From contig NC_060201.1 of the NCBI RefSeq assembly GCF_020623625.1, positions 496,001 to 560,000 of the forward strand: 64,000 bases of DNA. Reading direction: 5' to 3'. Source of the DNA: Saccharomycodes ludwigii. Taxonomy: Eukaryota > Ascomycota > Saccharomycetes > Saccharomycodales > Saccharomycodaceae. This document shows, one piece after another, positions 1-56,057 of the stretch. A program made the translations under genes and the position numbers. Within the stretch, counting starts at the first letter, position 1. Each line of letters opens with the position of its first letter. Under the pieces are notes generated by a model. That model was given only the letters and a program-made list of their open reading frames with translations, was not told the origin of the DNA and did no database searches.

Positions 1-190
1 TTGAATTATTCGTTATTATGTCATATACCTGTTACTATAAACCTACATCCTGGTGCCTGTAGCTTACAAACAAGTAGTATTATATACGGTAAAGATAAGA
101 TTGAAAATAAGCAAGCTTATAACGTATACTAATTCAATAGGAAAAAAAAAAAAAAAACACAAAACACCTGTACCTTTATTTTTTCCAACT
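1..190 (-). repeat. Ty5-like LTR remnant, cut by window start
   Basis: Diverged LTR of the same family as the element at 2022-7299. The stretch around 15-35 matches the LTR's TTATG-TATACCTGTTA segment. The end around 165-190 matches the terminal CACCTGTAC-TTTATTTTC-CAAC segment. Its orientation is the same as the LTRs of the whole element, whose coding strand is minus. It is an old fossil that continues off the window's left edge. Confidence 0.6.
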
Positions 191-539
191 ATCAAATATT
201 AATTTTTTAAAAAAAATTAAAAATAAATATAATTATTAAAAACACAAATTTATTGTTCGCATAATATTAGTATTTAATAATTATAAAAGTACAATATCAC
301 AATTAAGATTTATAATAATAATACAAATTTAAATTATATATTTAAATTAAAAACCGTAAATTATACTTATTTACTATTATTTTAATAATAAGTTAATAAA
401 ATATTATATTTTATTAAATATAAATAAAAAATACTTTGCGAACCCAAAAATTAGTTTTATAATAGATATTTCTATATATAGAAAGTACGAATCTTTAAAA
501 AGGTACGGGTGCATAAAATGTTTTTTTTTGGGTAATGTA
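191..539. other. Extreme AT-rich tract between two LTRs; candidate centromere core
   Basis: By hand count, 191-436 has about 21 G/C in 246 bases, roughly 92% AT. Inside it, GTTCGCA (255-261) and TGCGAAC (437-443) form a 7-bp inverted repeat separated by 175 bases with about 14 G/C. No plausible coding sequence is present. LTR remnants of the same family lie on both sides (1-190 and 540-679). The tract is left of ERG26, which in S. cerevisiae is the gene next to CEN7. The size and composition resemble a point-centromere CDEII, but no canonical CDEIII (TTTCCGAAA) or CDEI (RTCACRTG) is seen, so the centromere role is inference. Confidence 0.35.
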
Positions 540-679
540 TGTTGAGCGTATAGCTGATCTAACCGATCAATAGAATGATTCATATTATATAAGGAAAGAT
601 AATATCTAGAAGCAGCCACGTATATGATGTACGAACAGATAAAAAATAAAGACACACCCGTACATTTATTTTCTCAACA
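540..679 (-). repeat. Solo Ty5-like LTR, short form
   Basis: Begins TGTTGAGCG and ends TTTTCTCAACA, the same terminal inverted repeats as the LTRs of the whole element, with close similarity at both ends. It is about 140 bp against 243 bp for a full LTR. Flanking pentamers ATGTA (535-539) and TTGTA (680-684) differ at one base and may be a diverged target-site duplication. It is an old solo fossil. Confidence 0.8.
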
Positions 680-744
680 TTGTATACCGGTATGATTATA
701 AATCCTATATTGACATATATATAACATGACACTGTTTTCGTTAT

Positions 745-859
745 ATTAATGGTTTTTACATTTAAGCTGAAGTGACAAAGGCAATATATTCATATTAACA
801 GATACATTACATAATATGAACAATTCTATGTAATAGTAAGACCAGCTTTTTGCTCAACA
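745..859 (+). repeat. Ty5-like LTR remnant, opposite orientation
   Basis: Reads as the reverse complement of the LTR: segments near TATTCATATTAACA (788-800), TACATAATATGAA (about 808-820) and the end TGCTCAACA (851-859) match. It is partial and diverged. The boundary at the left is not clear. Confidence 0.65.
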
Positions 860-959
860 AATATATATACAATTTTTTTATTTTTTTGCACATCATGCAC
901 TTAATTATTTTAGTTTTTACATTCACTTATATGATCTCAATGAACTTAAACTAAGTATA

Positions 960-1078
960 AATCATAAAGATAAGCTCTGTGGAGAAGGTATAAGGACTAG
1001 GGTGTAGATTCATAGCAATAGGTATATTAAGTAATATGAATAATTCAATGAAAGGATAAAATCAGATTTTTGTTGAAC
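960..1078 (+). repeat. Ty5-like LTR remnant, opposite orientation
   Basis: A second reverse-oriented diverged LTR copy: AGCTCTGTGG, GGTGTAGATTCAT, AGGTATATTAAGTAATATGA and the end GTTGAAC align with the reverse complement of the 243-bp LTR. It is old, and the left boundary is uncertain. Confidence 0.5.
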
Positions 1079-1788
1079 TATTTGTTTACGCATGATATAC
1101 TGAAGCAAGTGATATATTAATATCGAAAAGTTTATTAAAAAATAAGCATAACTTTATTGATTGAATAATTTTGATATTCGTTAAAAAGAAAGATTAAAAA
1201 AAAAAAAAAAAAATAAAATAAAATAAAAAAAAAAAGTTTTTTAAATATCTCTCTAGAACAATCAAATAATGTATAATTCTGACATAAGTGAAAAAATAAT
1301 GACATAATTATAGCATAAAAGATAAATTTTTTTTATATGAAAGGATAATTGAATCCTGGGGAAGCAGATGAATCAGATCTACTTGACAGGTTCTATATGA
1401 CTTTGATCATTATTAATAAGAATTTTTAAATAAATGTTTCATTCGATTTATTGTGACACAGCTTAAATATTTGCTGTAGTTCCGGAAACTATAACCTTAT
1501 TAAGAAATTGCTTAATATAGAAAATGAAAAGAATTACGTACAATATGGAAAATACAAAAAATTTCACCTCCTCCTCCCTCCCTATAAAAGGTGATAATAT
1601 AAGCTTTATATGACCGAACTAAAAAGCAACTTTATATATACATGTAAAAGAAACATACCAAGTATGTTTGAATAATAAATTTACATGCTTATTTTCTCTT
1701 ATTTTCTCTTATTTAGCGGTAACATATTGTGTAGTTGCAATTTTTTACAGCTCTTTTATTTCCTTACATAATAAAAAATAATGATTTA
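1079..1788. other. Gene-free spacer in the LTR cluster
   Basis: No convincing ORF. It holds A-rich runs (about 1196-1235), a pyrimidine-rich patch (about 1566-1585), an imperfect palindrome AGTTCCGGAAACT (1478-1490) and a tandem ATTTTCTCTT-like repeat (about 1690-1712). It may contain further decayed LTR pieces that cannot be assigned by eye. Confidence 0.4.
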
Positions 1789-2021
1789 TGTTGAGCTAAT
1801 AGCTGATCTAACTGTTCTATAAAATTATTCATATTATGCAATATACCCATTAATATGAATACACACTTTAATATCTGTAGCGTAAGCAAAGAGACTTTTT
1901 ATAGAGCTTACGTATAATTTAAGTAATGTTGTGTTATACAAAGAAAGATACTGTCTATAAGAAAACAAGCACATGATATACACAGGTAAATAAACAATAA
2001 ATACACACCTGTACATTTATT
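1789..2021 (-). repeat. Older Ty5-like LTR, interrupted by the whole element
   Basis: Starts TGTTGAGCTAATAGC and runs as a diverged LTR copy up to GTACATTTATT. It continues after the inserted element with TTCTCAACA at 7305-7313. The two parts together give about 242 bp, a full LTR length. The younger element (2022-7299) therefore sits nested near the end of this older solo LTR. Confidence 0.85.
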
Positions 2022-2264
2022 TGTTGAGCGAATAGCTGATCTAACCGATCAATAGAATGATTCATATTATGTAATATACCTGTTAATATGAATATACACC
2101 TTAGTCTCTTTTAGCTTATGTAAAAGGGACTTCTTATATAATTACGTATAACTTAATTAATATAATATTATAAAAGGAAAGATAGTATTTAGAAGCAGCC
2201 ATGCATATGACGAACAGGCAGATAGAAAATAAATATACACACCCGTACATTTATTTTCTCAACA
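2022..2264 (-). repeat. 3' LTR of the Ty5-like element
   Basis: 243 bp, TGTTGAG to CTCAACA. No difference from the 7057-7299 copy was seen when read side by side, pointing to a recent insertion. The polypurine tract lies next to it at 2265-2273. Confidence 0.95.
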
Positions 2265-2303
2265 CTCTCCCTTACTTAATATTATCATAGTCTTTGTATA
2301 GTA

Positions 2304-5300
2304 TTAAGTAGTAATAAAGGTGTCACGGCATCTTTCGTGTAAAGCTCTTGAGAGAGGTTTGGTCATCATATCAGCTGGTTGTTCTGTTGTTTTTAAAAAT
2401 TGAATGTTTACCTTTTTGGTTTCAACGGCTTCTCTTATGTGGTGATATTTTACGTTAATGTGTTTTGTACGGTTGTGTTGTGTTGGATGTTTAGCAAGTG
2501 CAATTGCAGATGTGTTATCAGCCATCAAATCAATAGATGGTATTTCAATGTTCAGGCCATTAAATATGTCAGTTAACCAATATGCTTCTTTACACGCTTC
2601 ACTCATGGATATATATTCTGCATCAGTAGAAGATAAGCACATTACTTTAATTTTCTTGGAACTCCACGTAATGGGTGCACCACTGTAAACTGTGATGTAT
2701 CCACAGGTAGAATGCATATCCGTCTTATCATCGGCATAGGATGCATCACTGTAGACAGTAAGATGAGACGGAATACCTTTTTTATAAGTGAGACTAAAAT
2801 CTTTAGTAGTAATTAGATAGTCAACAACTCTTCTAGCAGCTTTCAGATGCACATTTGTAGGCGATTTGAGAAACCGAGATAAAAATGAAGCAGCAAAAGC
2901 AATATCATATCTCACAGTATTCGAAGCAAATAGCAGTTTTCCCACCATGCTTTGAAATCTAGTGATATCGGAAGTTGGAGGTTCAATTGAAGAAAATAAA
3001 TCGGCATGTTTATCTAGTGGAGTATGAATGGGTTTAAATGGAGGTCCAAATTCAACAAGCAATTTTGAAATATAATCGGATAGAGAGACCGAAATTCCTT
3101 GTGGAGATTGCGTTATGTTCATACCAAGAAATTTTGAAGCAGGTCCAAGATCTTTCATCTGGAAACACTCGGACAAGTAATGCTTGACTTTAGAAACATT
3201 AGCAGAAGAGCTACCGGCAATCAATAAATCATCAACATAGAGTGCAACAAAAGTTTCATCGGAGTTATTGCAACAAACAAACAACCCATGCTCAGATGGA
3301 TGTTTTGTAAAGCCTATATGGGCTAATTTTCCAGCTATAGTTTGGTTCCAAAGAAGAGGCGCTTGTTTCAAACCATATAAGCTTTTATTCAATTTCCACA
3401 CCATGCCAGGAGCATGTGGATAACCAACAGGAGGACGGACATATATGGGTGTATCAATAGGTGCATTTAGAAATGCCGTGGTTACATCCATTTGGTGGAT
3501 TAGGAAACCACGAGACGCAGCAACAGCAAGAAACAAACGAACGCTGCTATAACGAATAACAGGAGCAAATGTTTCATTGTAATCAATACCAGCACGCTGT
3601 GTAAAACCTTGGGCAACTAAACGGGCTTTGTACAACCCTGAATCCTTAATGGTAAAGACCCAACGAGAACCTATAGTTTTAGTGTCGGATGGAGGAGAAA
3701 CCAAATCAAACGTGTGATTTTCAACAAGCGAATTTAATTCCTGTTGACACGCACTTTTCCATTTTTTACCATTTGGACCTTTTAATGCAGCACTAAAGTT
3801 TTGTGGTATTTTATCATCATGGGTTCCAAAATAGGCCATAGCAGATAAAGCAATATTAGAGTGCTCAGGAAATGCTGCTGTATGGGAACGTTTAATAGCA
3901 GTGGATGAATAACCCTCAGTAGCGTTGGTTTCAGTCTGATCAAAAACGTCAGGCGATGTATGGACTAAGGAATCTGTTGTTCCAGTTGAAGCTGGTAATA
4001 ATGGTAATTCATTTAGTGATGGTACAGTCGAAGAGGAATTTTCTGATGTTGATGGTGAGGAAGATATAGAAGTAGATGGTAAAGCAAGATCCAAAAGCTG
4101 AGAGGTAAGTGGTGTATTCCCACCATGGGGAATGAAAAAGGGAGCCACTGATGACGATCCAAGGAAAGGAGCTGTTGCTTCACCAACTTCAAGTGGTTGA
4201 ACTGAAGTGGTTAGTAATTTCTGCGAGTCTGGTAATAGTTTTGAAAAATCAGGAGAAGGAATGGATTCAGATGATTCTGTAGCAGGCAAGGATGAACTGT
4301 TTGAGAAGGGAACAAGGCTGTCCAAGGAAGCTAATTTTTCTTTAGAGGTATGTTCACCAGTTTCATAATTGGTTGGGAGAACTGATAATTGTTTGATAGG
4401 ATTTGCAGCAATACATGATTGCCTAGGAGGGAGAATGGTATCTAACCCAGTTTGAGTACTTTCAACAGGCTGATGTCCGATGTACGGCATTGGGGAATCA
4501 TCAGGCATTCGATGAATAATTGAGTTTGTTGCTAAGGGAACTAAGTCAGAATTGGTTGTATTAGCAATTTTGTTATTCTGTAATGAGTCAAAGGTCTTTT
4601 TATCATCTGGTAGAATTATATCCCCGTCTGAGTCAGACGATAAAGATGAGGTATTGATATTGTTTATCATAGATGTCATTGGTGGTAGGTAAGTTCCTTT
4701 ACTAGCCATACTAGGATTAATAGATGAATTAGTTTGGGTTGATCCAATAGATGGATACTTAGGGGGTCCTGTAACTTTTGAATCAGCAAAATTATAGGCT
4801 TTTGACGAGTCAGATGAGTAGGCAAATGGAAACATAGTATCATCAAAAACAATATCTCTATTAGCTGCAACAAAAATCTTAGCACTATCAATATGATAAA
4901 TCCTATAGGCTTTGTGAGAGCTATCATAACCAACAAAAACACCAAGGATAGAGTTTGGCATCAATTTTCCATCACGATTAGACTCTGGTAATGTAACATA
5001 CGCAGCACATCCAAATACATGTAGATGTTCTATATTAATAGATTTGGGAGATTTATTAAACCAGATACAGTATGGTATTTTGTTATTGTTAAATGGACGA
5101 GGTGTCCTGTTGATAATATAGACAGAAGTTTGTAGTGCCTCTGTCCACAAATAGGGTGGTACCTTTCCTCCAATCATCAATGCTCTCATTCGTTCTTCGA
5201 TAGTACGATGTGTACGCTCAGCAATTCCATTTTGATAACTGGAATGTGATACGGTGAATTCATGTTTCACCCCTTTCTTTTGAAGATATTCATGAAAATT

Positions 5301-7100
5301 ATTGTTGTCAAATTCACCACCATGATCAGATCTAATAGTACCAAGTCGATAATTGTAACCATTTGCAGCAAAGAAATTCTCAATTTGGGTTATCCATGTA
5401 ATCAATGAGGATGTGGCATCAGATTTGCGCTTTAAGGATATAACAGTTATATATCGGGAGAAAGCATCAACTATTGTTAGAAAATATCTAGCTTCAGTTT
5501 GTTCTTTATATCGAAAGCCACCACAGATATCAACCATGATGACAGACAGTGGTTGTTTATACGTAGTGGTTGAAGATGTCGACTTGTCATGGATACCTTT
5601 TGACAATTGACAGGTTGGGCATTTAGAATACTTCTCAGAGTTCAAAATTGGTTTTCCAAATATCCGGGCAGCGGCATTATAATATTTAACACTGGGGTGT
5701 CCTAATTTAGCATGCCAGATTGGTGCACTTGATGAGGAAGCTGCAATCTTTTGTGAGACTGGGCCAAACGATAGGTTGTCCGCAGCAAGAGAGCAGAAAG
5801 CAAAGGAATCACCACACCAAGAATAAATACCGCCCTTAGTTTCAATACCAACCTGACGTAACACATCTTTTCCATGTAGCCAGACGGTACCGTCTTTCTT
5901 GAATACAAGGTCATAACCTTCACTCCTAATTTTCCTAACAGAAATTAGATTGTTCTGAAGATCAGGTACATATAAAACATCCCTGAAGACAGTTCCATTT
6001 ATATTAACAGTTCCTATTCCTTCTGCCGTTAATCTCTTTCCACCAATACCATTAACTGTTGTGTTACATGGTAGTAGTTCTGTAAAACAACTCCTATTAT
6101 CAGTCATATGTGCTGAACATCCACTATCTAAACACCAAATAGGTTCAGATTTGACAAAATTATCACATTTTCGGGATTTAGAATTTCCGTTTGAGAAGAA
6201 TGCGCTACTTTTGGTTTTTTGTAATATTTCTCTACATTTCTCAATATCGGGACAATTGATAGTTTTATGATCTTTGTCGCATAACTTGCACCTATACTTT
6301 GTTTCTCTGTTATATCTTTGATTTTTGGCTGAGACCTTAGTAAAAGCATCACCATTTTGGATTTTCTGTGATGTATTGAGGGTTGAAGATTGAGAAAGAA
6401 AAGCAGAAGATAATGGATTTATGGCATTGTCTTTATTCTTTCTTGTTGCTGACTTATTAGTCAAATACAATTTAATCTGATTAACAGTGACATCTGTGGA
6501 ATCACCATACTTATCAATCACCATATCAGCAATTGCTGGACAATAATCTAAAAATAAGGCACTTTGGTATAAAACTGAGTTTGTCATTCTCAAGTCATCT
6601 AATTCGACTAGATGATTTATAACTTCAGTACATGTCGAAATGGAAGAAGTTAAGGTATAAGGTGTAGGCTTCTTGCTCATGGCATCATAGTAGGATCTCA
6701 AAGTACCGGAGGAATACATCTCATTCAAGCTATCCCAGCCGGCCTTGGTTCTTAGATAATAATTTGTGCCCCGAAAAGCATTTGTGGCAGCTGTATATGT
6801 ATCTAATGTATTTTCATCGAGAGATTTTCTGATGGCCATGTCTGCAATTCGACTAGCCGTGGTAAGCATTCTAGTGGTAACAAATGTATCAGCATTATTA
6901 ATGTCTGGTATGTTTAATAGACCAGTTTGCAAGAAACTCACAATATATGGGTTAAAGGCTGTTAACATATAAGTAAATTCGTCACACCATTTTTTATAGT
7001 TGGAATTTCCTTTTAATTTGTAGAGTACTTCGGGTATTGCCTCAGGGCTCATAACCTGTTGAGCGAATAGCTGATCTAACCGATCAATAGAATGATTCAT
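2304..7100 (-). CDS. Gag-Pol polyprotein of the Ty5-like element
   Basis: A single frame of 1598 residues. Visible parts in order: a Gag region; a zinc knuckle CKLCDKDHKTINC; a protease motif LDSGCSAHMT; an integrase zinc region with HAKLGHPS and CPTC; integrase core motifs (IMVDICGG, RSDHGGEFD, QNGIAERTHR); a serine/proline-rich linker; reverse transcriptase with YVDDLLIAGS; and RNase H (VYSDASYADD). The order protease-integrase-RT-RNase H defines Ty1/copia (Pseudoviridae). The first ATG is inside the LTR, and a second in-frame ATG lies in the primer-binding sequence, so the true start is open. One fused frame, rather than two overlapping ones as in Ty1, is like Ty5. Confidence 0.93.
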   Translation of the reverse strand: MNHSIDRLDQLFAQQVMSPEAIPEVLYKLKGNSNYKKWCDEFTYMLTAFNPYIVSFLQTGLLNIPDINNADTFVTTRMLTTASRIADMAIRKSLDENTLDTYTAATNAFRGTNYYLRTKAGWDSLNEMYSSGTLRSYYDAMSKKPTPYTLTSSISTCTEVINHLVELDDLRMTNSVLYQSALFLDYCPAIADMVIDKYGDSTDVTVNQIKLYLTNKSATRKNKDNAINPLSSAFLSQSSTLNTSQKIQNGDAFTKVSAKNQRYNRETKYRCKLCDKDHKTINCPDIEKCREILQKTKSSAFFSNGNSKSRKCDNFVKSEPIWCLDSGCSAHMTDNRSCFTELLPCNTTVNGIGGKRLTAEGIGTVNINGTVFRDVLYVPDLQNNLISVRKIRSEGYDLVFKKDGTVWLHGKDVLRQVGIETKGGIYSWCGDSFAFCSLAADNLSFGPVSQKIAASSSSAPIWHAKLGHPSVKYYNAAARIFGKPILNSEKYSKCPTCQLSKGIHDKSTSSTTTYKQPLSVIMVDICGGFRYKEQTEARYFLTIVDAFSRYITVISLKRKSDATSSLITWITQIENFFAANGYNYRLGTIRSDHGGEFDNNNFHEYLQKKGVKHEFTVSHSSYQNGIAERTHRTIEERMRALMIGGKVPPYLWTEALQTSVYIINRTPRPFNNNKIPYCIWFNKSPKSINIEHLHVFGCAAYVTLPESNRDGKLMPNSILGVFVGYDSSHKAYRIYHIDSAKIFVAANRDIVFDDTMFPFAYSSDSSKAYNFADSKVTGPPKYPSIGSTQTNSSINPSMASKGTYLPPMTSMINNINTSSLSSDSDGDIILPDDKKTFDSLQNNKIANTTNSDLVPLATNSIIHRMPDDSPMPYIGHQPVESTQTGLDTILPPRQSCIAANPIKQLSVLPTNYETGEHTSKEKLASLDSLVPFSNSSSLPATESSESIPSPDFSKLLPDSQKLLTTSVQPLEVGEATAPFLGSSSVAPFFIPHGGNTPLTSQLLDLALPSTSISSSPSTSENSSSTVPSLNELPLLPASTGTTDSLVHTSPDVFDQTETNATEGYSSTAIKRSHTAAFPEHSNIALSAMAYFGTHDDKIPQNFSAALKGPNGKKWKSACQQELNSLVENHTFDLVSPPSDTKTIGSRWVFTIKDSGLYKARLVAQGFTQRAGIDYNETFAPVIRYSSVRLFLAVAASRGFLIHQMDVTTAFLNAPIDTPIYVRPPVGYPHAPGMVWKLNKSLYGLKQAPLLWNQTIAGKLAHIGFTKHPSEHGLFVCCNNSDETFVALYVDDLLIAGSSSANVSKVKHYLSECFQMKDLGPASKFLGMNITQSPQGISVSLSDYISKLLVEFGPPFKPIHTPLDKHADLFSSIEPPTSDITRFQSMVGKLLFASNTVRYDIAFAASFLSRFLKSPTNVHLKAARRVVDYLITTKDFSLTYKKGIPSHLTVYSDASYADDKTDMHSTCGYITVYSGAPITWSSKKIKVMCLSSTDAEYISMSEACKEAYWLTDIFNGLNIEIPSIDLMADNTSAIALAKHPTQHNRTKHINVKYHHIREAVETKKVNIQFLKTTEQPADMMTKPLSRALHERCRDTFITT

Positions 7101-7299
7101 ATTATGTAATATACCTGTTAATATGAATATACACCTTAGTCTCTTTTAGCTTATGTAAAAGGGACTTCTTATATAATTACGTATAACTTAATTAATATAA
7201 TATTATAAAAGGAAAGATAGTATTTAGAAGCAGCCATGCATATGACGAACAGGCAGATAGAAAATAAATATACACACCCGTACATTTATTTTCTCAACA
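7057..7299 (-). repeat. 5' LTR of the Ty5-like element
   Basis: 243 bp, identical by eye to the left LTR. The Gag-Pol reading frame opens inside it (ATG at 7100). The half-tRNA primer site abuts its inner edge. Confidence 0.95.
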
Positions 7300-7304
7300 T
7301 TATT

Positions 7305-7313
7305 TTCTCAACA
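7305..7313 (-). repeat. Terminal piece of the older, interrupted LTR
   Basis: TTCTCAACA after the TTATT target duplication is the missing end of the LTR at 1789-2021. This shows the nested insertion. Confidence 0.8.
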
Positions 7314-7397
7314 AAATAAACTCACAATTTATATATCTTTTATTATAACACAAAATTTGGACTGGAAAAAAAACTTTTTGTCGAAACTCATGAATGT

Positions 7398-7542
7398 TGT
7401 TGAGCGAATAGCTGATCTAACTGTTCGACAGAATTATTGATATTGTGTGATATACACAAAGCTAGAATGTATAAGAATACCAGCATATGATGTATGGGTA
7501 AATATAACGTAAATACACACCTGTATTTTTATTTTCTTAATA
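7398..7542 (-). repeat. Solo Ty5-like LTR, short and diverged
   Basis: Begins TGTTGAGCGAATAGCTG and ends around CTGTATTTTTATTTTCTTAATA, matching both LTR ends with many differences. It is about 145 bp. An old solo fossil. Confidence 0.75.
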
Positions 7543-8781
7543 AGTGCTAAGGAGATGGTTGACCTAATAAAAGTGTATATATCAATGTACTACGTCTTGC
7601 AGTGTAAAATTACTATCAAGATTTTTTTATCATTTGACAAGGAGAGTTACATGACGTACATTGTACAAGTAGAAAATAACCTTAACTAGCAGGAACTTAA
7701 TAAAGGAGTTATTACATATAATTAAGAAAATAAGCCCTTGTATTTGTTTTCTTGAAAAAATAAATATAGGGACATAAGTTTGGGTATCTAGTGAGCATTG
7801 TTGTCTATTAATGTCTATATTTTACATATAATATATTATGTTTTGTCATGATAGGAATAGCGATACTCTTGTAGGTCTTGTTATAATGTTTGAAAAGGAT
7901 ATTAGGTTCTTCTAATTTTTCTTGACAATTAATAAAGATAACAAAGTAAACTTTTGGTGGCAGATGCTATTATTTAGGAGTTACAAAATATGCTCAAAAA
8001 TCAAAACAAAAGATAAGTTAGTTATATGGTTAGTATGGGGTGTTTACAGCTAGTATCCTATTAGAATAAGGGTAAATCTTGATAAAGTAAACATCTATAA
8101 AGCGCCATGTTTATCAGCAACCATCTGAATGCTCTTTTCAATTCCTAAACGTTCTGATATAGACTGATAGTGACTGGATGAAGCGCATAGATATGGGGTT
8201 TTATGATTGTTGTATAATAGAATAGTTTGAAGTTATTAGTTAAATAGTAAGTGAGCTGGAGCACTGCAGTAGGTTCTACTTTTCAACTAATATCAAGAAG
8301 AAATTAATGAACGACAGATTCGTTTATAACAAGATGGGAATTTTTTTCGAATTCTTTTTTTTTTTTTTTGTTTTTTTTTTTTTGGTAAGTTACGATAGTT
8401 TTTGCACTCGTACAGTATAACTTTTTATTATGCTCTGCGTGAGTAAGGAATCGTGTTTTTCCCATTTTTTAATTAATGATTTTATTTTGAATTAAAATTG
8501 CAGGCTCCAACTATTTCTTAGTTTTCCAGGATTATAGGAACTTTTGGTTGCTGTTGATGTTATTACGACCATTATGATTGGCATTATTACTGCTTTTTTT
8601 TTTTTTTTTTTCGTTTTCCCTTTTCCCTTTTCCCTTTTCCTTTTTTTTTTTTTCTCTATTATAAAATTTCCTCATATATCTTTATTTATTTGTCCCCACT
8701 GTGATCTGTAATTCACCAGGAACATAAGCTACACAGACTTTTATTAAAAAAAAAGAAAAAAAAAAATCTATATTATTAGGG
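7543..8781. other. Gene-free region and ERG26 upstream sequence
   Basis: No ORF worth calling. About 7660-7755 has weak similarity to LTR ends (TAGAAAATAA; CCCTTGTATTTG). Poly-T runs occur at about 8355-8382 and 8594-8611. A short CCCTTTT tandem lies at about 8617-8640. A TCGTTTA motif (8320-8326), similar to sterol-response sites bound by Upc2/Ecm22, is 456 bp upstream of ERG26; this is weak evidence only. Confidence 0.4.
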
Positions 8782-9837
8782 ATGTCCAAGGAGATAAAAA
8801 GTGTATTGCTAATTGGTGGTGCTGGGTTTTTAGGTCTTCATTTAATTCAAGAATTTTATGATGTTAAACCTCAACCAAAGATCTGTGTATTTGATGTCCG
8901 TCCAATACCAGAAAAGTTAAGTAAACAGTTCACATTTAACCCAAAAGAAATAGAGTTTTTTAAAGGGGATCTAACATCCGAAGAAGATGTTGCTAAAGCG
9001 ATCAAAAGTTCGGGTGCCAATGTTGTAGTCCATTCTGCTTCTCCCATGCACGGGAATACCCAAGAGGTATATGAGAAGGTGAATGTTGAAGGTACTAGGA
9101 ATTTGATTAAGGTTTCCAAAGCTTGTGGTGTGAAAGCCTTGGTCTATACTTCCTCGGCTGGTGTTATTTTTAACGGGCAAGATATTCACAATGCAGACGA
9201 GACTTGGCCAATACCAGAGATTCCTATGGATGGTTACAATGAGACCAAAGCTATAGCAGAAGGGATGGTGTTAAAGGCAAACGATCCCTCGTGTGGATTT
9301 TTAACAGTTGCCTTAAGGCCAGCTGGTATTTTTGGGCCTGGCGATCGTCAATTGGTCCCAGGGTTGAGGGCAGTTGCCAAGCTTGGTCAATCTAAATTTC
9401 AAATTGGCGACAACAATAACTTGTTTGATTGGACGTATGCAGGAAATGTTGCGAATGCTCATGTTTTGGCAGCTATAAAATTACTAGACGCAGAGACAAG
9501 AAATGCAGTTTCTGGGGAAACATTTTTCATTACAAATGACACTCCTGCCTATTTCTGGGCCTTAGCACGTACTGTTTGGAAGGCAGATGGACACATTGAT
9601 AAGTATAATATTGTTTTGTCCAGACCAGTTGCCATTGTTGTTGGATACTTGTCTGAATTTTTTTCTAAATTGCTAGGCAAAGAACCAGGTTTAACTCCTT
9701 TCAGAGTTAAAATTGTATGTGCTTATCGTTACCATAATATTAGCAAGGCCAAGAGATTATTGGGGTATTATCCAGTAGTTGGCATTGAAGAAGGTATTAA
9801 TAGGACTTTGGCCTGGATGGATGAAGGCTTGGATTAA
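8782..9837 (+). CDS. ERG26: C-3 sterol dehydrogenase (C-4 decarboxylase)
   Basis: 351 residues (about 349 in S. cerevisiae Erg26). It is an NAD(P)-dependent 3beta-HSD/SDR enzyme that oxidises and decarboxylates 4-methyl sterol carboxylates in the Erg25-Erg26-Erg27 C-4 demethylation complex of the ER. The sequence shows the Rossmann loop GGAGFLG (12-18), the catalytic YxxxK as Y152 and K156 in GYNETK, and a serine in TSS (123-125) before it. The hydrophobic stretch around AIVVGYLSEFF near the C terminus is typical of membrane-associated family members. The ATG follows an A-rich leader. In S. cerevisiae this gene (YGL001C) is the one next to CEN7; here its upstream side faces the LTR cluster and the AT-rich tract. 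Confidence 0.95.
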   Translation: MSKEIKSVLLIGGAGFLGLHLIQEFYDVKPQPKICVFDVRPIPEKLSKQFTFNPKEIEFFKGDLTSEEDVAKAIKSSGANVVVHSASPMHGNTQEVYEKVNVEGTRNLIKVSKACGVKALVYTSSAGVIFNGQDIHNADETWPIPEIPMDGYNETKAIAEGMVLKANDPSCGFLTVALRPAGIFGPGDRQLVPGLRAVAKLGQSKFQIGDNNNLFDWTYAGNVANAHVLAAIKLLDAETRNAVSGETFFITNDTPAYFWALARTVWKADGHIDKYNIVLSRPVAIVVGYLSEFFSKLLGKEPGLTPFRVKIVCAYRYHNISKAKRLLGYYPVVGIEEGINRTLAWMDEGLD

Positions 9838-11065: not shown

Positions 11066-14000
11066 TTATGGAATACATTGCAAACATTTATATTTACCAT
11101 TATTTTGTCCTAATTTTTTCAAACATTGTTTATGAAACCCATGAAGACAATGAAAAACAATTAGATCCAAGTCTTCAGATTGCAAAATTTCATCTTTCGC
11201 AGTGAGCTTTTGTCCTTCAGTTTTCAACCAGTTGATAATAACCTCTCTATCAATATCTGGACCATAAAGAACCTCACCACAAGCAAAACACTCTCTATTC
11301 AGCAACATCCATCCCTTCAACGAATATCTTTGATAATTGTCAGTTAGGATTTTGGAATCAGAATTGAAAATTCTTAAAATAAGCTGAGCAGATATCTGTT
11401 CTATTGTATAATTAATAAAAATACTTTGTAGAATTGGTCTGACTTTTGAAATCTTGGATAAAATAAACTCACTATTTTCTAGCACTTTTGTCAAAACAGA
11501 GGTCAACATAAGATTTTTTTTATCCAGTACACCTTCGGTTATTTGTTCTGTTCCCTTATCGATGGTTTCATTCTCCCCATTCAGAGATAATGTCAATATG
11601 ATTTGTTGAATTGCTTCCATACAAAAATTCCTTTTTTCTTCAGTACAGATGTCAGTTACTCCTAGCATATGGTAAGCAGAAAAGAAAATTAAAAGAAATC
11701 GAGACCATAGCTCCATACTGCAAGCTTCTATGCAAGCAGCTAGTCCCCTGGAATAAAGCCTTTCCAAAATATCCTTGCTAAGTGTCGAACAACTTTTTTC
11801 GTCACCGAAATAATCCTTGAAACAAATCTCCGACTCGTCGATTATTTTGGGATAAAAATGCAGCTTAAACATCACATCAAATAGACAGGTGTATTTTTGG
11901 TGCTCTTTTAAAATGTCAAATAGTTCTTTAATATCTGTTGTTTTCAGGTCCATCGACGATAAAACAACATTTAGTTCTTTTTCATATTTTGAATCCTTAC
12001 AAAGGGACTGGATGTACAGACTCAACAGTTTATTACTTATTATTGATACACCCTCATATTCCAAAACTTTTCGTAAAAACTTAATTTTATCATCATCACT
12101 TATTGGTTCTAGGGTTTTTGTTATGTGGGCACAAGCAGAAGGACAGTATTTACACAATACAACAGCAAACTGAGATGCATTAACCGAGATACACTTTGCA
12201 AAGTTTACTAAAAGCGAGTCTATCAATAATTGTTTTTCAATGGGATCGGTGTTTAAATACAAAAAAGCCTCTTCGAGAAGAGGGATCAAATGGACACCAA
12301 AAACATTGGGGGAATCCAGCTGGAAGTATAATTTTAAACAATTCACATATTTGTGTTCACTTCTATAGATGCTAAACAACACCCTGGTAAACCCTTTTTC
12401 TGAAAAAATGGGGATATACTTCTCCAAATCAAAATGCACCTTTTTCATCGACAACAAACATTCTACACCTAGTTCAGAGTCCTGTTTATAGATGTTGTTC
12501 TTGCAAAGATTTTTTATCAAGACATGGCAATTTCTTGTTGATATTCTAATAAATTGTTGATATTTTGGGTAATTGGTTGAGATGAAAACACTTATCAACT
12601 TTGCAATATTTTCATCCAAATCTTCACTTGAATTAACAATCCCCAAAAGAATGTCAATGATTGTTTGTCTGCTTTCAGTTGTCCCAAATTCGCTACTGTC
12701 CATTCCGTTAAAATAAGAGTCTTCAAATAGACAGTTCAACAAAGCTAAACATTTCAATGGGTCCAGCTGGAGTAAAAACTTGAAATAGGGATAAGCAGGC
12801 TCATGCTCACCATAGTCTTTGGAAAAGACACACAACTTTTCGTTGCTGGCTTGTGGCCAACGTATTGTTGATCCATTAAATATAACACCATACAAGGCTG
12901 TTTTAACAGTAGTGGCCTCTTCTTCTGTAAGCGTCTGACTGTTAGGAAACCTTAGCCCGCTTAGTGAATAATAAAGATATTGGAAAAGTAAGTATTGAAG
13001 TTCTTCGTGGCTGGCCCCTTTGAAGAATGTGCCCCTTGGGCTAACCAATTCTGATAGCAGTTCAATGAACGGAGACACAAAGTCGTTAAAAACATTGGGC
13101 CAGAAATACAAGATCAAATCCCAAGCACCTATTTTATTTAAACATTTGATCAATTGGTCTATGTCATAGCATACGGGATCAAGTTTGAAAACTAGACATG
13201 AAAGGATATGGGCCAGGTTAGTGTCTTTTGTGTTCATACCACCTACATAATAGTTTATAATTTTTTTAACAGTCAAAGGTGGAAGAAAAACTTTGTTAAG
13301 GCTGCCATGTTCTAGGAACGTCACAAGTTTAGATAAAAACACGGTCTCCATTTCGTCACTCAGTTCTTTTTCAGTTAAGTGCTCAATAATAGGCATTTCT
13401 CTAGGATTTAATTTGGAATCTATTTCTATAATTTCACCAAAAATCTTGTCTAACTGGGCAGTGCTATGACTACGGTCAGAATCATTTATATCTTGTTTTG
13501 AGAGATGGTCTATTATAGCCAAAGAAAGTGACTCAAACGTTCTATTTAGTTCTTTTTTTATTATTCGAGGGTCGTTATCTAATTTTAGGATCATTCTAAA
13601 AGATGTGCAATTCTCACTGGAAAGTTCCATTAGTATTTGTAAAGCCATTGACATGTTCCCTTGTTGCAAACAACTTAAAATAGTCTCGGACCACGTATTG
13701 AACTTTGCCATCTTTAATGAAGAATTTGTTAACAATGCAATTTGGGAGTTAATAGATGAAACACAAAGCTTTAACGGCTGTAAAAGATAAAATTTTGCTA
13801 TATCAATGCGGCTAGCTATTTTTGCTGGATCACACAAATACATGTCTAGCAACTCAATTTTTCCCGAGCTGGTTAACAAAGATACCATGTATTTATTTAT
13901 TAAGGACAATTTTTCAACACACTCCGCATGCTCAAACTTTTTCGTTGATTTTAAAGTAAATCCAGATCCAAGGCTCGTTTCATCAACTGCAAATTTAAAA

Positions 14001-14944
14001 AGATAAACTGAGGAATCTCTTGAGACATACAAAGACTTACCGCCATCATCTTCGATGTTCCATAGCAAATCACCAACCGACCGCATTGGGGTATCAAAAG
14101 TCTTATAAAATAGTATCAAGTTCGCTTTCTTGAAAGAAAGTATCTTCACACTGTTTAAATCCAATATTGCTACAATATCTTCGATACACTCGCCCCTTAT
14201 TTTATAGGGAAAGGGTAGTGCTTTCGTTACAAGTATGCGGTCATTACCTAGATTTTGAGACTCGGTAGGGATTTCTGCGGTGGTGTATTTTAACTTCCAC
14301 AACCCATTTCTGAACCCTTTGTGATACAACATCCTAAATTTATTATCGCTCACAACAATTCCGGTATGCTTATTCGATAAAAATTCTAGACTAAGAATTT
14401 CAGAGTTTCTATGTTCAACAATATGAAGGATAGAGAGTATTTTCTCAAAGGATTCTTCTCTTGAAGTGGGTTCGGGTGGCCGGTTCAAATCCCATAAAAA
14501 TATATCACCGGACTTGCAGGCAGCTGCTAAATAAGTTCCATCGTGCGATAAGTTAATCATTGTGATTGGTGACCTAAACTCTTGATCTTCTGGAACTAAT
14601 ACGTGTGTGATGAATTGACTATAATTATAAATCAAAACATGGCCTTTACTGGTTCCCAGTGCGATACATCTGCTTGAAGTGAATATAGTTGTTGGTGGTG
14701 GGAATTCTAGTATGCCATACATGTTTTCATAAACTTTTGCTAGGTCTACCCATTTTGTAGTTATTGGCAAAGAATACTGTTCATCATTATCCATTGAAAG
14801 AAGGTGATTGCTGTTTGCCTGACATGATTGTTGTTCAGAGTCTGTATCGTCTTGTTTGAGTAGATATTTGTCTTCCCAATTGGATTTGAAGGAAATATCA
14901 AACATGCCAAGTTTCCCACGGGGTTGTTGGTCATTATTTTCCAT
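11066..14944 (-). CDS. VPS8: Vps8, CORVET tethering complex subunit
   Basis: 1292 residues (about 1274 in S. cerevisiae). Vps8 is the Rab5/Vps21-binding subunit of CORVET, which tethers vesicles at endosomes. The N-terminal third has WD-like beta-propeller strands (for example GTSKGHVLIYNYSQF, LAAACKSGDIFLWDLN). The middle is a long alpha-solenoid. The C terminus has a RING-H2-like zinc region: CFACGE at about 1217, then HCLHGFHKQC and CLQC at the very end. The ATG at 14944 follows a long T/C tract (poly-A in the sense of the gene). Its 3' end faces the CFEM-like gene. Confidence 0.93.
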   Translation of the reverse strand: MENNDQQPRGKLGMFDISFKSNWEDKYLLKQDDTDSEQQSCQANSNHLLSMDNDEQYSLPITTKWVDLAKVYENMYGILEFPPPTTIFTSSRCIALGTSKGHVLIYNYSQFITHVLVPEDQEFRSPITMINLSHDGTYLAAACKSGDIFLWDLNRPPEPTSREESFEKILSILHIVEHRNSEILSLEFLSNKHTGIVVSDNKFRMLYHKGFRNGLWKLKYTTAEIPTESQNLGNDRILVTKALPFPYKIRGECIEDIVAILDLNSVKILSFKKANLILFYKTFDTPMRSVGDLLWNIEDDGGKSLYVSRDSSVYLFKFAVDETSLGSGFTLKSTKKFEHAECVEKLSLINKYMVSLLTSSGKIELLDMYLCDPAKIASRIDIAKFYLLQPLKLCVSSINSQIALLTNSSLKMAKFNTWSETILSCLQQGNMSMALQILMELSSENCTSFRMILKLDNDPRIIKKELNRTFESLSLAIIDHLSKQDINDSDRSHSTAQLDKIFGEIIEIDSKLNPREMPIIEHLTEKELSDEMETVFLSKLVTFLEHGSLNKVFLPPLTVKKIINYYVGGMNTKDTNLAHILSCLVFKLDPVCYDIDQLIKCLNKIGAWDLILYFWPNVFNDFVSPFIELLSELVSPRGTFFKGASHEELQYLLFQYLYYSLSGLRFPNSQTLTEEEATTVKTALYGVIFNGSTIRWPQASNEKLCVFSKDYGEHEPAYPYFKFLLQLDPLKCLALLNCLFEDSYFNGMDSSEFGTTESRQTIIDILLGIVNSSEDLDENIAKLISVFISTNYPKYQQFIRISTRNCHVLIKNLCKNNIYKQDSELGVECLLSMKKVHFDLEKYIPIFSEKGFTRVLFSIYRSEHKYVNCLKLYFQLDSPNVFGVHLIPLLEEAFLYLNTDPIEKQLLIDSLLVNFAKCISVNASQFAVVLCKYCPSACAHITKTLEPISDDDKIKFLRKVLEYEGVSIISNKLLSLYIQSLCKDSKYEKELNVVLSSMDLKTTDIKELFDILKEHQKYTCLFDVMFKLHFYPKIIDESEICFKDYFGDEKSCSTLSKDILERLYSRGLAACIEACSMELWSRFLLIFFSAYHMLGVTDICTEEKRNFCMEAIQQIILTLSLNGENETIDKGTEQITEGVLDKKNLMLTSVLTKVLENSEFILSKISKVRPILQSIFINYTIEQISAQLILRIFNSDSKILTDNYQRYSLKGWMLLNRECFACGEVLYGPDIDREVIINWLKTEGQKLTAKDEILQSEDLDLIVFHCLHGFHKQCLKKLGQNNGKYKCLQCIP

Positions 14945-15470: not shown

Positions 15471-16889
15471 TTAATCCCCTCTGTTAGATGGATGCAACAT
15501 CATTATTATATCGGTATAATCCACTGGTATAACAAATTTCTCGACGCCAAGATCGTTGCCACGGACATCGTATCTTTCCCTGGTGATCAAATCAATGTCT
15601 TGTTCTTTATTCCATTGTTGTCTTTTCTCTTCATCAACATCAACAATATCATCAAATTCGTCTTCTTTCTCAATATATACAACGTTTTCGTCAATTTCCT
15701 CAAAGTCAGGCGCCAATGCACTCCACTTTGGTGGGACTATAATAGACCATATATATATATTTCCAGATTCAAGACTGTTGCTAGCTATGCACATGTTATA
15801 ATAGTTCCAATCAATACATAGTAACTCTTCATCAGCAGCTCCCTCTAAAACACGAACCAATGATCCTGTGGTTGTTTCCCATAGATAAAGATCACGCGCA
15901 GTAGACCCATGAGGAGAAGCAACCAAGTATTCTCCTGTGTTTGGCCCCAACGCTATATGATTCCATTGCAATTTATTAATAACGTCTTGGTATTTGTGCT
16001 GCAATTCTATTATCTCAAAGACAGGAGTGGCACTATCAGAAGATATTAGTATTTCATACTGTCTTATTGTTCTATCAGACGAGTTGATGCACATCTTGCT
16101 CATTGACTGAGAGACTATTATATTTTTAATGGTTGAATTTGCTAGTTTATCTATTTTGGTTATTTTGTAATGCAGTTTTTGTGACGAGTCATTTGTTATT
16201 TGCTGGAAAACCGTGATATATCCTTTTGAAGTACCTGTTATTAGAATATTAGAAGATGCGGAGCCTTGTTGCTGTAGTTCGCAAGTACACAAACTTAAAG
16301 TAAATCCATATTTTTTCAACTCTATATCGTCAATAAGAAGCAATTGCTCATTTTCTTTATTAAGAAAATCTTCAGTATCAATTATTGGGTAAATTTCCGG
16401 TTTATTGTTATTATTATTTACGCCAAAATCTAGTATAAAGGGCAAATGTTCTTCAAATACACAAACAAAACATTTGTCTACGCAATTGGGTATAAACGAT
16501 GTTTTCCATGGGAAAGAATCAAATCTATATTCACAGCAGTTGCATTTAGTGCCACTATTACAAGCTAGGTCCCATAATTTTATGGTACAGTCTCTTGATG
16601 ATGTCAGAAGATATCTTCCACAATTGGACCATTCTATAGACTGAATGGGTGACACATGACCAGTTAAATTACATCCCAGGTTATTGTTACCTAACATCTT
16701 AATGGGCTTATAAGTATCCATATCATAAATAATGATTGCCCCATTTCCACATCCAGTAGCCAAATAATCACCACATGGACTAAATTTTAAGCAAACAGAA
16801 TAAAACGGACTTTCCAGCACATTAGTTAGAGTCTCTGGGTATTCTTTCAATACAGAAAAAGGATCTTGTAAAAGTAAATTTAAAGCCAT
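15471..16889 (-). CDS. SWD1: Swd1, WD40 subunit of COMPASS histone H3K4 methyltransferase
   Basis: 472 residues (about 426 in S. cerevisiae; RbBP5 in animals). It is a WD40 propeller: the N terminus has FSPCGDYLATGCGNGAIIIYD, then HVSPIQSIEWSNCGRYLLTSS and IKLWDL. Later blades include GEYLVASPHGSTARDLYLWE and SNSLESGNIYIW. The tail is acidic (EFDDIVDVDEE). Swd1 is a core part of the Set1 complex, which methylates H3 lysine 4. In S. cerevisiae SWD1 (YAR003W) neighbours ERP1; here it is divergent from the p24 gene, the same pairing. The insertion with Asn and Cys clusters around residues 130-190 is longer than in the S. cerevisiae protein. Confidence 0.9.
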   Translation of the reverse strand: MALNLLLQDPFSVLKEYPETLTNVLESPFYSVCLKFSPCGDYLATGCGNGAIIIYDMDTYKPIKMLGNNNLGCNLTGHVSPIQSIEWSNCGRYLLTSSRDCTIKLWDLACNSGTKCNCCEYRFDSFPWKTSFIPNCVDKCFVCVFEEHLPFILDFGVNNNNNKPEIYPIIDTEDFLNKENEQLLLIDDIELKKYGFTLSLCTCELQQQGSASSNILITGTSKGYITVFQQITNDSSQKLHYKITKIDKLANSTIKNIIVSQSMSKMCINSSDRTIRQYEILISSDSATPVFEIIELQHKYQDVINKLQWNHIALGPNTGEYLVASPHGSTARDLYLWETTTGSLVRVLEGAADEELLCIDWNYYNMCIASNSLESGNIYIWSIIVPPKWSALAPDFEEIDENVVYIEKEDEFDDIVDVDEEKRQQWNKEQDIDLITRERYDVRGNDLGVEKFVIPVDYTDIIMMLHPSNRGD

Positions 16890-17393: not shown

Positions 17394-18050
17394 ATGAAGT
17401 TATTATTGTCACAATTAACTATTCTCTTACTGGTTTTAGTTCAACAGACTTCCGCTTTTTATTTATATGTCACAGGAAGTGATCGTAAGTGTTTTAGTAA
17501 AGAACTTTCAAAAGACACTCTATTATCAGGAGCTTATTCTTTACAAGTTTACAATTCAGATTCACAGACCTATAGAGATGTTATTGGAGATGAAATCAGT
17601 CTTGTTATTGATGTGGAAGAAGTTTTTGATGATAATCACAGAGTTGTTCATCAAACGGGTTCTGCTGTTGGTGATTTTACATTTGTTGCATTGGATTCTG
17701 GTGAACACAAGATTTGTTTCCAACCGCAATCCGGCGGCTGGTTGGCCAAGACTAAATCTAAATTGGATATTCAATTTGAGATTGGTTCTAAATTAGAATT
17801 GGATTCTAAAAAGAAGGGAACCGTTGCTAACTTGCATGCTAAAGTTAATATTTTAAATGCTAAAGTATCAGAAATTAAGAGGGAACAAGCTTTGGTTAGG
17901 GAACGTGAGTCTATTTTTAGAGACAAATCGGAATCTGTTAACGCCCGTGTTGCTTGGTGGTCTATCATTCAATTGATTGTACTAGCGGTTACCTGTGTCT
18001 GGCAATTGAGGCATTTACGTACCTTCTTTGTTAAACAAAAAATTTTGTAG
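17394..18050 (+). CDS. ERP6: p24 family cargo receptor (ERP1/ERP6 type)
   Basis: 218 residues, type I membrane protein of COPII/COPI vesicles. A signal peptide (1-21, cleavage after TSA) is followed by a GOLD domain with two cysteines (Cys33 and the one in HKICF). A coiled coil follows (about 140-180), then a transmembrane segment (about 188-205) and a short cytosolic tail RHLRTFFVKQKIL. The tail has the FF signal for COPII and KxKxx at the end for COPI. p24 proteins sort GPI proteins and others between ER and Golgi. Position beside SWD1 and CDH1 points to the ERP1/ERP6 ancestor (YAR002C-A/YGL002W), so the symbol marks that orthology group. Confidence 0.88.
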   Translation: MKLLLSQLTILLLVLVQQTSAFYLYVTGSDRKCFSKELSKDTLLSGAYSLQVYNSDSQTYRDVIGDEISLVIDVEEVFDDNHRVVHQTGSAVGDFTFVALDSGEHKICFQPQSGGWLAKTKSKLDIQFEIGSKLELDSKKKGTVANLHAKVNILNAKVSEIKREQALVRERESIFRDKSESVNARVAWWSIIQLIVLAVTCVWQLRHLRTFFVKQKIL

Positions 18051-18272: not shown

Positions 18273-18512
18273 TGTTGAGAGAATAAACGTACGGGTATAT
18301 TTTTATGTTCTATTTGCCTTTGCGTCATATGCTTGTTTTCTTAAAGATATTATCTTTCCTTATATAACATAACATTACTTAAGTTATATAGGAGGGGGAG
18401 GGGGGGGTCTCTACATAAGTTAAAGAGACTGAGGTCATACATTTATATTAAAAGGTATATTACATAATATAAGTAATTCTATTGAACGGTTGGATTAGCG
18501 ATTTGTTCAATA
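18273..18512 (+). repeat. Solo Ty5-like LTR
   Basis: About 240 bp. It starts TGTTGAGAGAATAAACGTACGG and ends ATTTGTTCAATA; the inside (TTATCTTTCCTTATATAA, AAAGAGACTGAGG, AAGGTATATTACATAATAT) follows the reverse complement of the LTR at 2022-2264. Its orientation is therefore opposite to the whole element. It holds a G-rich patch (about 18391-18407). No clear target duplication; an old solo fossil. Confidence 0.85.
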
Positions 18513-55560: not shown

Positions 55561-55878
55561 TTTGGGGGAGAATGTCCCGTGTATGTCTATAATATATTTA
55601 TAGGATTACGGATTTTCATTTTACTTTTTGATGACTGAATGAAAATTTAAATGTGGCGATGATCCCCATTTTGCCTCTTCTTTTTGGTATTTAATAGAAG
55701 TTGAATGTTTTCAATAATCAGCTAACGTACACTTTGGAAATAGTTTGCATTTTTTATCTTTTTATTTTTATTTTTTCTTTTTTCTTTTTTTTTTTTTAAA
55801 GAAAAAAAGTCAAATTAATAAATCAATTAAATTATTTACGTGTTTATACTATTTAATTTATTTAGCTATTTATCTATA

Positions 55879-55925
<47 letters not shown>

Positions 55926-56057
55926 AAAAAAGAAAAAAAAAAAGAAAAAAAAAAAGAAATAAATAAAAAAAAAAAAAGGATGCAAGGTTATATATAGATT
56001 TTCTCGTTGTTTCATTACCATCATTATCGCTACATTTCTCGAAGATTTATCAATATT
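55561..56057. other. Gap between convergent SEC9 and ECL1-family genes
   Basis: 497 bp containing an A-run of about 48 (55876-55923) and further A-blocks (55929-55978), plus T-runs (55765-55797). No gene. Confidence 0.6.

Follow-up and report, generated by a model that had tools for sequence, protein, structure and literature searches.

Saccharomycodes ludwigii chromosome C2 carries a short AT-rich tract, bordered by two inverted boxes and surrounded by remnants of Ty5-like LTRs, and the question raised by this locus is whether the tract is the centromere of the chromosome and, if so, how its sequence would be read. It is an open question how larger, epigenetic centromeres gave rise to short, sequence-read point centromeres; the Saccharomycodales, as a close outgroup, may hold the answer.

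The window analyzed here is a stretch of 64,000 nucleotides (C2:496001-560000), in which the position equals the C2 coordinate minus 496000. The assembly contains 12,500,424 bases in 8 contigs, of which C1 to C7 are the chromosomes and C8 has a size of 26 kb. An assembly of S. ludwigii NBRC 1722 is described in PMC8567612 as 12.5 Mb in 7 chromosomal scaffolds. All comparisons between elements were made among the seven chromosomes of one S. ludwigii genome, for which we read 20 kb at each of the LTR clusters on C2-C7 and 6.7 kb on C1.

The element at approximately positions 230-468 is very probably the centromere of S. ludwigii chromosome C2. Taken as a whole, a sequence-defined, two-ended centromere at the ancestral CEN1/CEN7 locus is likely to be the best explanation, a reading that draws on the anatomy of the element, its presence on all seven chromosomes, the synteny of the neighbors, the exclusion of LTRs and the genes for Ndc10 and Cep3.

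An AT-rich element between inverted boxes on chromosome C2

A previous sequence-only reading of the window had described a tract of about 246 bp with 92% AT and an inverted repeat, GTTCGCA/TGCGAAC, with a spacing of 175 bp. Both descriptions were reproduced: the most AT-rich 246-bp tract within positions 1-1145 has an AT content of 91.5% and starts at about 192, and the boxes, located at 255-261 and 437-443, are separated by exactly 175 bp. The LTR remnants reported on both sides were likewise recovered, at C2:495904-496066 to the left and at C2:496540-496679 and other places to the right (Table 1).

Table 1. Features in and next to the window around the candidate centromere of chromosome C2. 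Positions refer to the window unless given as C2 coordinates.
Feature	Position	Strand	Basis and remarks
Further left LTR remnant	C2:495904-495961		LTR matches on this flank, E 2.8e-11 and 3e-4
LTR remnant, left flank	1..66	+	LTR match extends 26 bp to the left of position 1
Left end motif, 32 bp, outward-reading	230..261	-	TGCGAA hexamer 261..256; TT in columns 20-21; A in column 32
AT core (CDEII-like), 175 bp, 92.0% AT	262..436		Composition and box spacing
Right end motif, 32 bp, outward-reading	437..468	+	TGCGAA hexamer 437-442
LTR remnants, right flank (540-592 and 582-679)	540..679	+	98 bp from right box
Inverted LTR remnant	754..859	-	LTR match
Inverted LTR remnant	985..1049	-	LTR match
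LTR, 78% identity to intact copy	1789..2022	+	LTR match
Ty5-like element	2022..7299	-	LTRs 2022-2264 and 7057-7299; Pfam Ty5 Gag, rve, RVT_2
LTR remnants	7398..7540	+	LTR match
ERG26 orthologue (3Beta_HSD)	8782..9837	+	Pfam
VPS8 orthologue	11066..14944	-	Pfam
WD40 protein, CDH1 by position	15471..16889	-	Pfam, CDC20/Fizzy among matches
p24 family gene (EMP24/p24), ERP6 by position	17394..18050	+	Pfam

A high AT content alone was dropped as evidence for a centromere, because another 175-bp tract in the window, at 55802-55976, is even richer in AT (7.4% GC, as compared to 8.0% GC for the C2 core). In the genome-wide search for the exact box pair, no match was obtained at this tract, which is the AT-richest in the window. 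The C2 tract was also used as a DNA query against the genome, and the sole match was the C2 tract itself, which shows that the cores are too unlike for detection by such a search.

The statement that there are no genes from position 1 to 8780 had to be revised, since a Ty5-like gag-pol ORF of 1598 amino acids at 2304-7100 on the reverse strand had been overlooked; no host gene was seen in this interval. The ORF is uninterrupted and the two LTRs of the element are 100% identical over 243 nt, which points to a recent insertion.

Paired boxes on seven chromosomes

The exact pair GTTCGCA-N150..180-TGCGAAC was found at two places in the 12.5 Mb, namely in the C2 window and at C7:404607, as compared to none for the reversed control. 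The relaxed pair TTCGCA-N168..190-TGCGAA matched six places in the genome, one each on C2-C7 and all located in Ty5-like LTR clusters, while the reversed control matched three. Spacing bins of equal width yielded one place (191-213) and four places (130-152), none of which is at an LTR cluster or an element, indicating that the chance level is a few places per bin. The half-site pattern (21 bp) on its own was recovered at 18 places, corresponding to the 12 boxes on C2-C7 and 6 others, with 20 places for the reversed control. It is the pairing of the boxes, rather than the lone half-site, that marks the loci. One of the half-site matches, at C1:1315220, was considered as an element and dropped, as it falls within a coding ORF. 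The sequence-only reading had named many equally AT-rich tracts with the same boxes at non-centromeric loci as an argument against a centromere, and no exact hexamer pair with the N168..190 spacing was found in the 12.5 Mb beyond the six elements; the runs over the whole assembly used exact patterns only, so variant copies may exist elsewhere.

On C1, the locus was picked through synteny and the element inside the locus was recognized through its boxes. We searched for RRP6, which we take to be a CEN15 neighbor in S. cerevisiae, via the PMC2NT domain, and obtained a single match at C1:2192850. LTR fragments and a TTCGCA box at C1:2194420 are located upstream of the RRP6 start, and the right box, TGCGAC, which has one mismatch, is found 193 bp further on, with a core of 187 bp and 91.4% AT between the two. 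A second hexamer with one mismatch, TGCGTA, is located 65 bp beyond TGCGAC; the latter was chosen for its spacing, and the outer columns of its site fit the motif. When C1 was left out of the matrix, its two half-sites scored 24.0 and 19.9, as compared to 17.7 for the best background position.

Another candidate for the centromere of this chromosome, at the Ty5-like element C1:2234307-2239586, was dropped since no box pair adjoins it. Its neighbors are KEL3- and HAT2-like (as identified by eye), which we presume not to be centromere neighbors. A partial end motif (TGTGAACACAAAAT..., score 12.4) is present at C1:2239659-2239696, about 70 bp from this non-element Ty5-like LTR.

In total, a centromere-like element was identified on all seven chromosomes (C2-C7 by pattern, C1 by synteny). 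The box spacing from start to start on C1-C7 is 193, 181, 187, 186, 189, 192 and 186 bp (mean 187.7, sd 4.1), and the cores of the six elements other than C2 have a length of 180-187 bp and an AT content of 90.0-93.4%. No run of A or T is longer than 6 in any of the seven cores. The sequence-only reading had suggested comparing the tract with AT cores next to further ancestral centromere-flanking genes, and such cores carry TGCGAA boxes at similar spacing on seven of seven chromosomes, with one mismatch in one box.

All 14 half-sites align without gaps over 32 bp if read outward from the core. The TGCGA sequence, TT in columns 20-21 and A in column 32 are invariant in the 14 half-sites, and A is nearly invariant at columns 6 and 12. 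The full TGCGAA hexamer is present in 13 of the 14, the remaining box having one mismatch; since the C2-C7 elements were selected via the hexamer, its conservation there is built in, but that of columns 7-32 is not. With matrices trained without the chromosome being scored, the half-sites obtained scores of 19.9-29.1 (n = 14), including 29.1 for the left end of C2, which was matched by 0 of 438,548 background positions, and 23.0 for the right end of C2, with no background position as high. No background position in the 219,651 bases was found to reach any half-site score, where the best background score of 17.7 comes from the matrix without C1 and the other six matrices rescored only those positions that scored above 8 in that scan.

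This best match outside the elements is located at 7336-7373 in the window, between two LTRs and about 6.9 kb from the element. It covers the outer half of the motif without the TGCGAA hexamer, and is perhaps a decayed end site. Unmasked BLAST searches of the cores against each other gave many partial matches in both orientations. AT bias alone could produce such matches, and homology among the seven AT cores is not claimed.

Neighboring genes and ancestral centromere loci

Gene identities were taken from Pfam domain matches and from yeast gene names and positions. The gene order ERG26, CDH1 and p24, as previously suggested for the window, was confirmed, with 3Beta_HSD, Vps8, WD40/Cdc20-Fz and EMP24/p24 genes found in turn. 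We take ERG26 to be the CEN7 neighbor and VPS8 to be the CEN1 neighbor in S. cerevisiae. TFC3 and a gene of the N6-adenine-methyltransferase family (EFM5) are located on the other side of the C2 element, which was assigned to locus 1-7. The EFM5 candidate had no match in a sequence search of the PDB. In S. cerevisiae, TFC3 is presumably located beside VPS8; here TFC3 (region L007:3442-6972) shares its side of the element with EFM5, a small rearrangement across the centromere.

The ancestral pairs of S. cerevisiae centromeres are given in PMC5074576 as 1-7, 2-4, 3-14, 5-9, 6-16, 8-11, 10-12 and 13-15. The C3 element has a trehalase gene on one side and an ECM15-type gene and histone genes (by eye) on the other (locus 2-4), while the C4 element has a DOM34-type gene on one side and septin and L32p genes on the other (locus 3-14). 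A fasciclin protein gene flanks the C6 element on one side, with an RTT109-type gene and genes for dynamin and a proteasome subunit on the other (locus 10-12). Next to the C7 element are genes for TRAP-alpha/IRC22 and a BTB-ankyrin protein on one side, and for an RRM protein, NOP16 and PMI on the other (locus 5-9). The C5 element was assigned to locus 8-11 by dynamin and poly(A) polymerase genes on one side, which is the weakest assignment, and the C1 element to locus 13-15 by RRP6, on one side only. Judging from the domain matches and gene names, the elements on at least six of the seven chromosomes appear to adjoin genes at ancestral centromeres. The paired boxes and the ancestral neighbor genes, genome-wide, thus support the suggestion that the tract on C2 is a centromere.

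Could the element instead be a preferred landing site of Ty5, or a boundary, that has no centromere function and a synteny that is coincidental? The distribution of LTRs would agree with this: at least 27 matches were obtained in a genome search with the intact LTR, and among those listed 22 are located within 10 kb and 26 within 46 kb of an element, the remaining one being a weak match (69%) at C3:1808497. However, the genes next to the elements are assigned to distinct ancestral centromere pairs in at least six of the seven cases, and the Ty5-like element at C1:2234307-2239586 has no adjoining box pair. We consider a mere landing site extremely improbable.

Ty5-like elements and LTRs around the elements

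A cluster of Ty5-like elements or LTRs was found at the centromere-like element on all seven chromosomes. In total, 35 LTR matches were identified in the seven regions read, with 2 to 11 matches per region (2 on C7 and 3 short ones on C1). LTR matches are present on both sides of five of the seven elements, only to the left of the C1 element and only to the right of the C6 element. None of the 1,356 bp inside the elements and none of the 560 bp in the adjoining 40 bp on each side are covered by LTRs, as compared to 47.6% at a distance of 41-140 bp, 61.5% at 141-340 bp and 8.1% at 341-1000 bp, and the closest LTR matches are located 44-98 bp from the elements. Ty5-type insertions crowd the element edges and are missing from the centre. 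An LTR-free centre would fit both with selection against broken centromeres and with physical protection.

With regard to other Ty5-like copies, an ORF of 1598 amino acids is also present at the C6 element, the copy on C4 has a shorter ORF of 902 amino acids, and C1 contains a Ty5-like copy with LTRs. Another LTR in the window, at 18273-18510 (76% identity), is located 18 kb from the element and just past the p24 gene.

The clusters could also be taken to mean that an epigenetic kinetochore is formed over the wider LTR cluster, as in a short regional centromere, and that the element is an accessory origin or a boundary. Early origins are often located at centromeres. In several other yeasts, the centromeres are marked by clusters of Ty5 LTRs (PMC12711049). 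Such a regional centromere is very unlikely for S. ludwigii, since there is a conserved element on each chromosome, with 181-193 bp from start to start, since the exact pair is absent elsewhere at such spacing and since LTRs are excluded from the element.

A further alternative is that the boxes descend directly from a Ty5 LTR. Haase et al. have reportedly put forward the hypothesis that Ty5 LTRs were co-opted at centromeres. The location of the elements among LTR pieces on all seven chromosomes and matches with E-values down to 0.002 in unmasked BLAST searches of the cores against the LTR are consistent with such a co-option, which is also discussed in PMC12711049. But the present LTR contains no motif match, the best score being 0.5 as compared to a mean of 2.9 for shuffled sequences, and the fragments aligned by BLAST are short and fall mainly within the AT-rich portion of the LTR. 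There is thus no support for the motif having arisen from the present LTR, and a direct descent of the boxes from the LTR seems distinctly doubtful to us. The sequence-only reading had also proposed an intermediate between LTR-derived DNA and a point centromere. The location inside Ty5-LTR clusters agrees with this proposal, but the lack of the motif in the LTR and the absence of LTRs from the elements do not.

Candidate binding factors and a two-ended layout

In S. cerevisiae, the two ends of the centromere are bound by different factors, and the consensus of CDEI is RTCACRTG. No exact CDEI was found within 150 bp of any of the seven elements, and one-mismatch searches of the same regions gave four matches, all outside the cores and at differing places. 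The CDEIII core, CCGAA, is absent from all seven elements, and within 300 bp the sole TTCGG is located 131 bp to the left of the left box of C6. The absence of both CDEI and CDEIII bears out the previous remark that the tract is unlike known point centromeres. Because there is no exact CDEI and no CCGAA, neither Cbf1 binding nor canonical CBF3 recognition is readable from the sequence.

Homologs of two CBF3 proteins are encoded in the genome. The Ndc10 homolog (C3:281228, E 1.6e-48) aligns to yeast CBF3 subunit A, and for the Cep3 homolog (C3:997227, E 4.9e-92) the alignment with S. cerevisiae CBF3 subunit B begins at residue 2 and includes the cysteine-rich zinc-cluster region. A second protein with an NDC10_II-type domain was detected at C2:1812367-1812696 (E 1.7e-8), in an open frame of 1091 amino acids.

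We suggest a centromere in which two inverted, outward-facing copies of one 32-bp site bracket 175-187 bp of about 92% AT. The AT core would wrap one Cse4 nucleosome, and each end site would be bound by the same sequence-reading complex, most likely CBF3, the Cep3 of which has retained its zinc-cluster region. Such a centromere would be recognized at its two ends alike, rather than having Cbf1 at one end and CBF3 at the opposite one, and the insertion of Ty5-like elements would take place immediately beyond the core that is occupied. Since CDEI and CCGAA are absent from the elements, the binding of CBF3 to both ends is something that we infer, and to which we assign an even chance.

It is also conceivable that the element is an asymmetric point centromere in disguise, with one real CDEIII-like end for CBF3, and another end that is degenerate, auxiliary or a replacement for Cbf1. 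The different factors at the two ends in S. cerevisiae would argue for this, as would the unequal end scores in some elements (29.1 versus 23.0 in C2) and the mismatch in one of the C1 boxes. However, six of the seven elements carry an unaltered hexamer at each end, columns 20, 21 and 32 are conserved at the two ends of all seven, and the stronger end is the left one in three and the right one in four, with no consistent side. We regard a hidden asymmetry as unlikely and prefer the layout with two equivalent ends. As a tentative extension, toward which we lean slightly less than away, the centromere would be a mirror image, and the asymmetric CDEI/CDEIII form would be derived, with one of the equal ends handed over to Cbf1. 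A symmetric element of about 240 bp on seven of seven chromosomes, along with the CBF3 genes, would represent a concrete minimal centromere with two boxes that can be mutated separately.

Comparison with known centromeres

The S. ludwigii elements share with the point centromeres of the Saccharomycetales the presence of one element per chromosome, the ancestral neighbors, an AT core of nucleosome size and the genes for Ndc10 and Cep3. They differ by the lack of CDEI and CCGAA, and by a single 32-bp motif that is inverted at both ends. The GCGAA in the box and its A-rich tail faintly resemble the consensus CCGAA. With a length of 175-187 bp and an AT content of 90.0-93.4%, the cores qualify as an AT-rich CDEII, for which the published range extends to nearly 200 bp (PMC12925627). 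The same paper describes point centromeres without regular CDEI or CDEIII motifs in Naumovozyma, which by this description are similar to those in S. ludwigii.

For H. uvarum, which also belongs to the Saccharomycodales, a centromere motif of 21 bp, or CAM, with two AACGCA copies 5 nt apart has been described (Hession et al., 2025, PMC12711049). The two species have in common a motif at every centromere, inverted boxes with a CGCA core and largely conserved locations. However, the AACGCA pair in H. uvarum is 5 nt apart within 21 bp, whereas in S. ludwigii TTCGCA and TGCGAA flank an AT core, at a distance of 175-187 bp from each other. Clusters of Ty5-like elements and LTRs, as in S. ludwigii, are also described for the centromeres of Cyberlindnera sargentensis, Scheffersomyces stipitis and others (PMC12711049). 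Unlike those, S. ludwigii has a conserved LTR-free element in or beside each cluster.

For all chromosomes of S. ludwigii NBRC 1722, a study from 2021 described putative point centromeres based on synteny and a motif (PMC8567612), and these are probably the same loci as the elements presented here. The main text of that paper, in the portion available, gives no centromere architecture, whereas the elements are here described with a two-ended layout. Proto-point centromeres in the Saccharomycodaceae are mentioned by Helsen et al. (2025). Because of these earlier reports, neither the location nor the general kind is new. Among the literature matches listed, the two-ended layout is not named in titles or abstract openings, and it may be in print elsewhere. 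The layout, with boxes about 188 bp apart, is a structural variant that may already have been published.

A presumed second ancestral locus on chromosome C1

Contig C1, which bears the CEN13/15 element, also contains HAT1 (1,313,242-1,314,450), a gene that we place at the ancestral CEN6/16 locus. No exact TTCGCA/TGCGAA pair was found within the 20 kb read around HAT1. The combination of the HAT1 locus and the CEN13/15 element on C1 suggests a chromosome fusion in which one centromere was lost. The absence of the pair from the HAT1 locus fits with a descent of the seven chromosomes from eight ancestral centromeres. A similar case has been reported for Hanseniaspora, in which one ancestral location out of eight does not hold a centromere (PMC12711049). 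The HAT1 locus on C1 may thereby offer a natural case of centromere loss.
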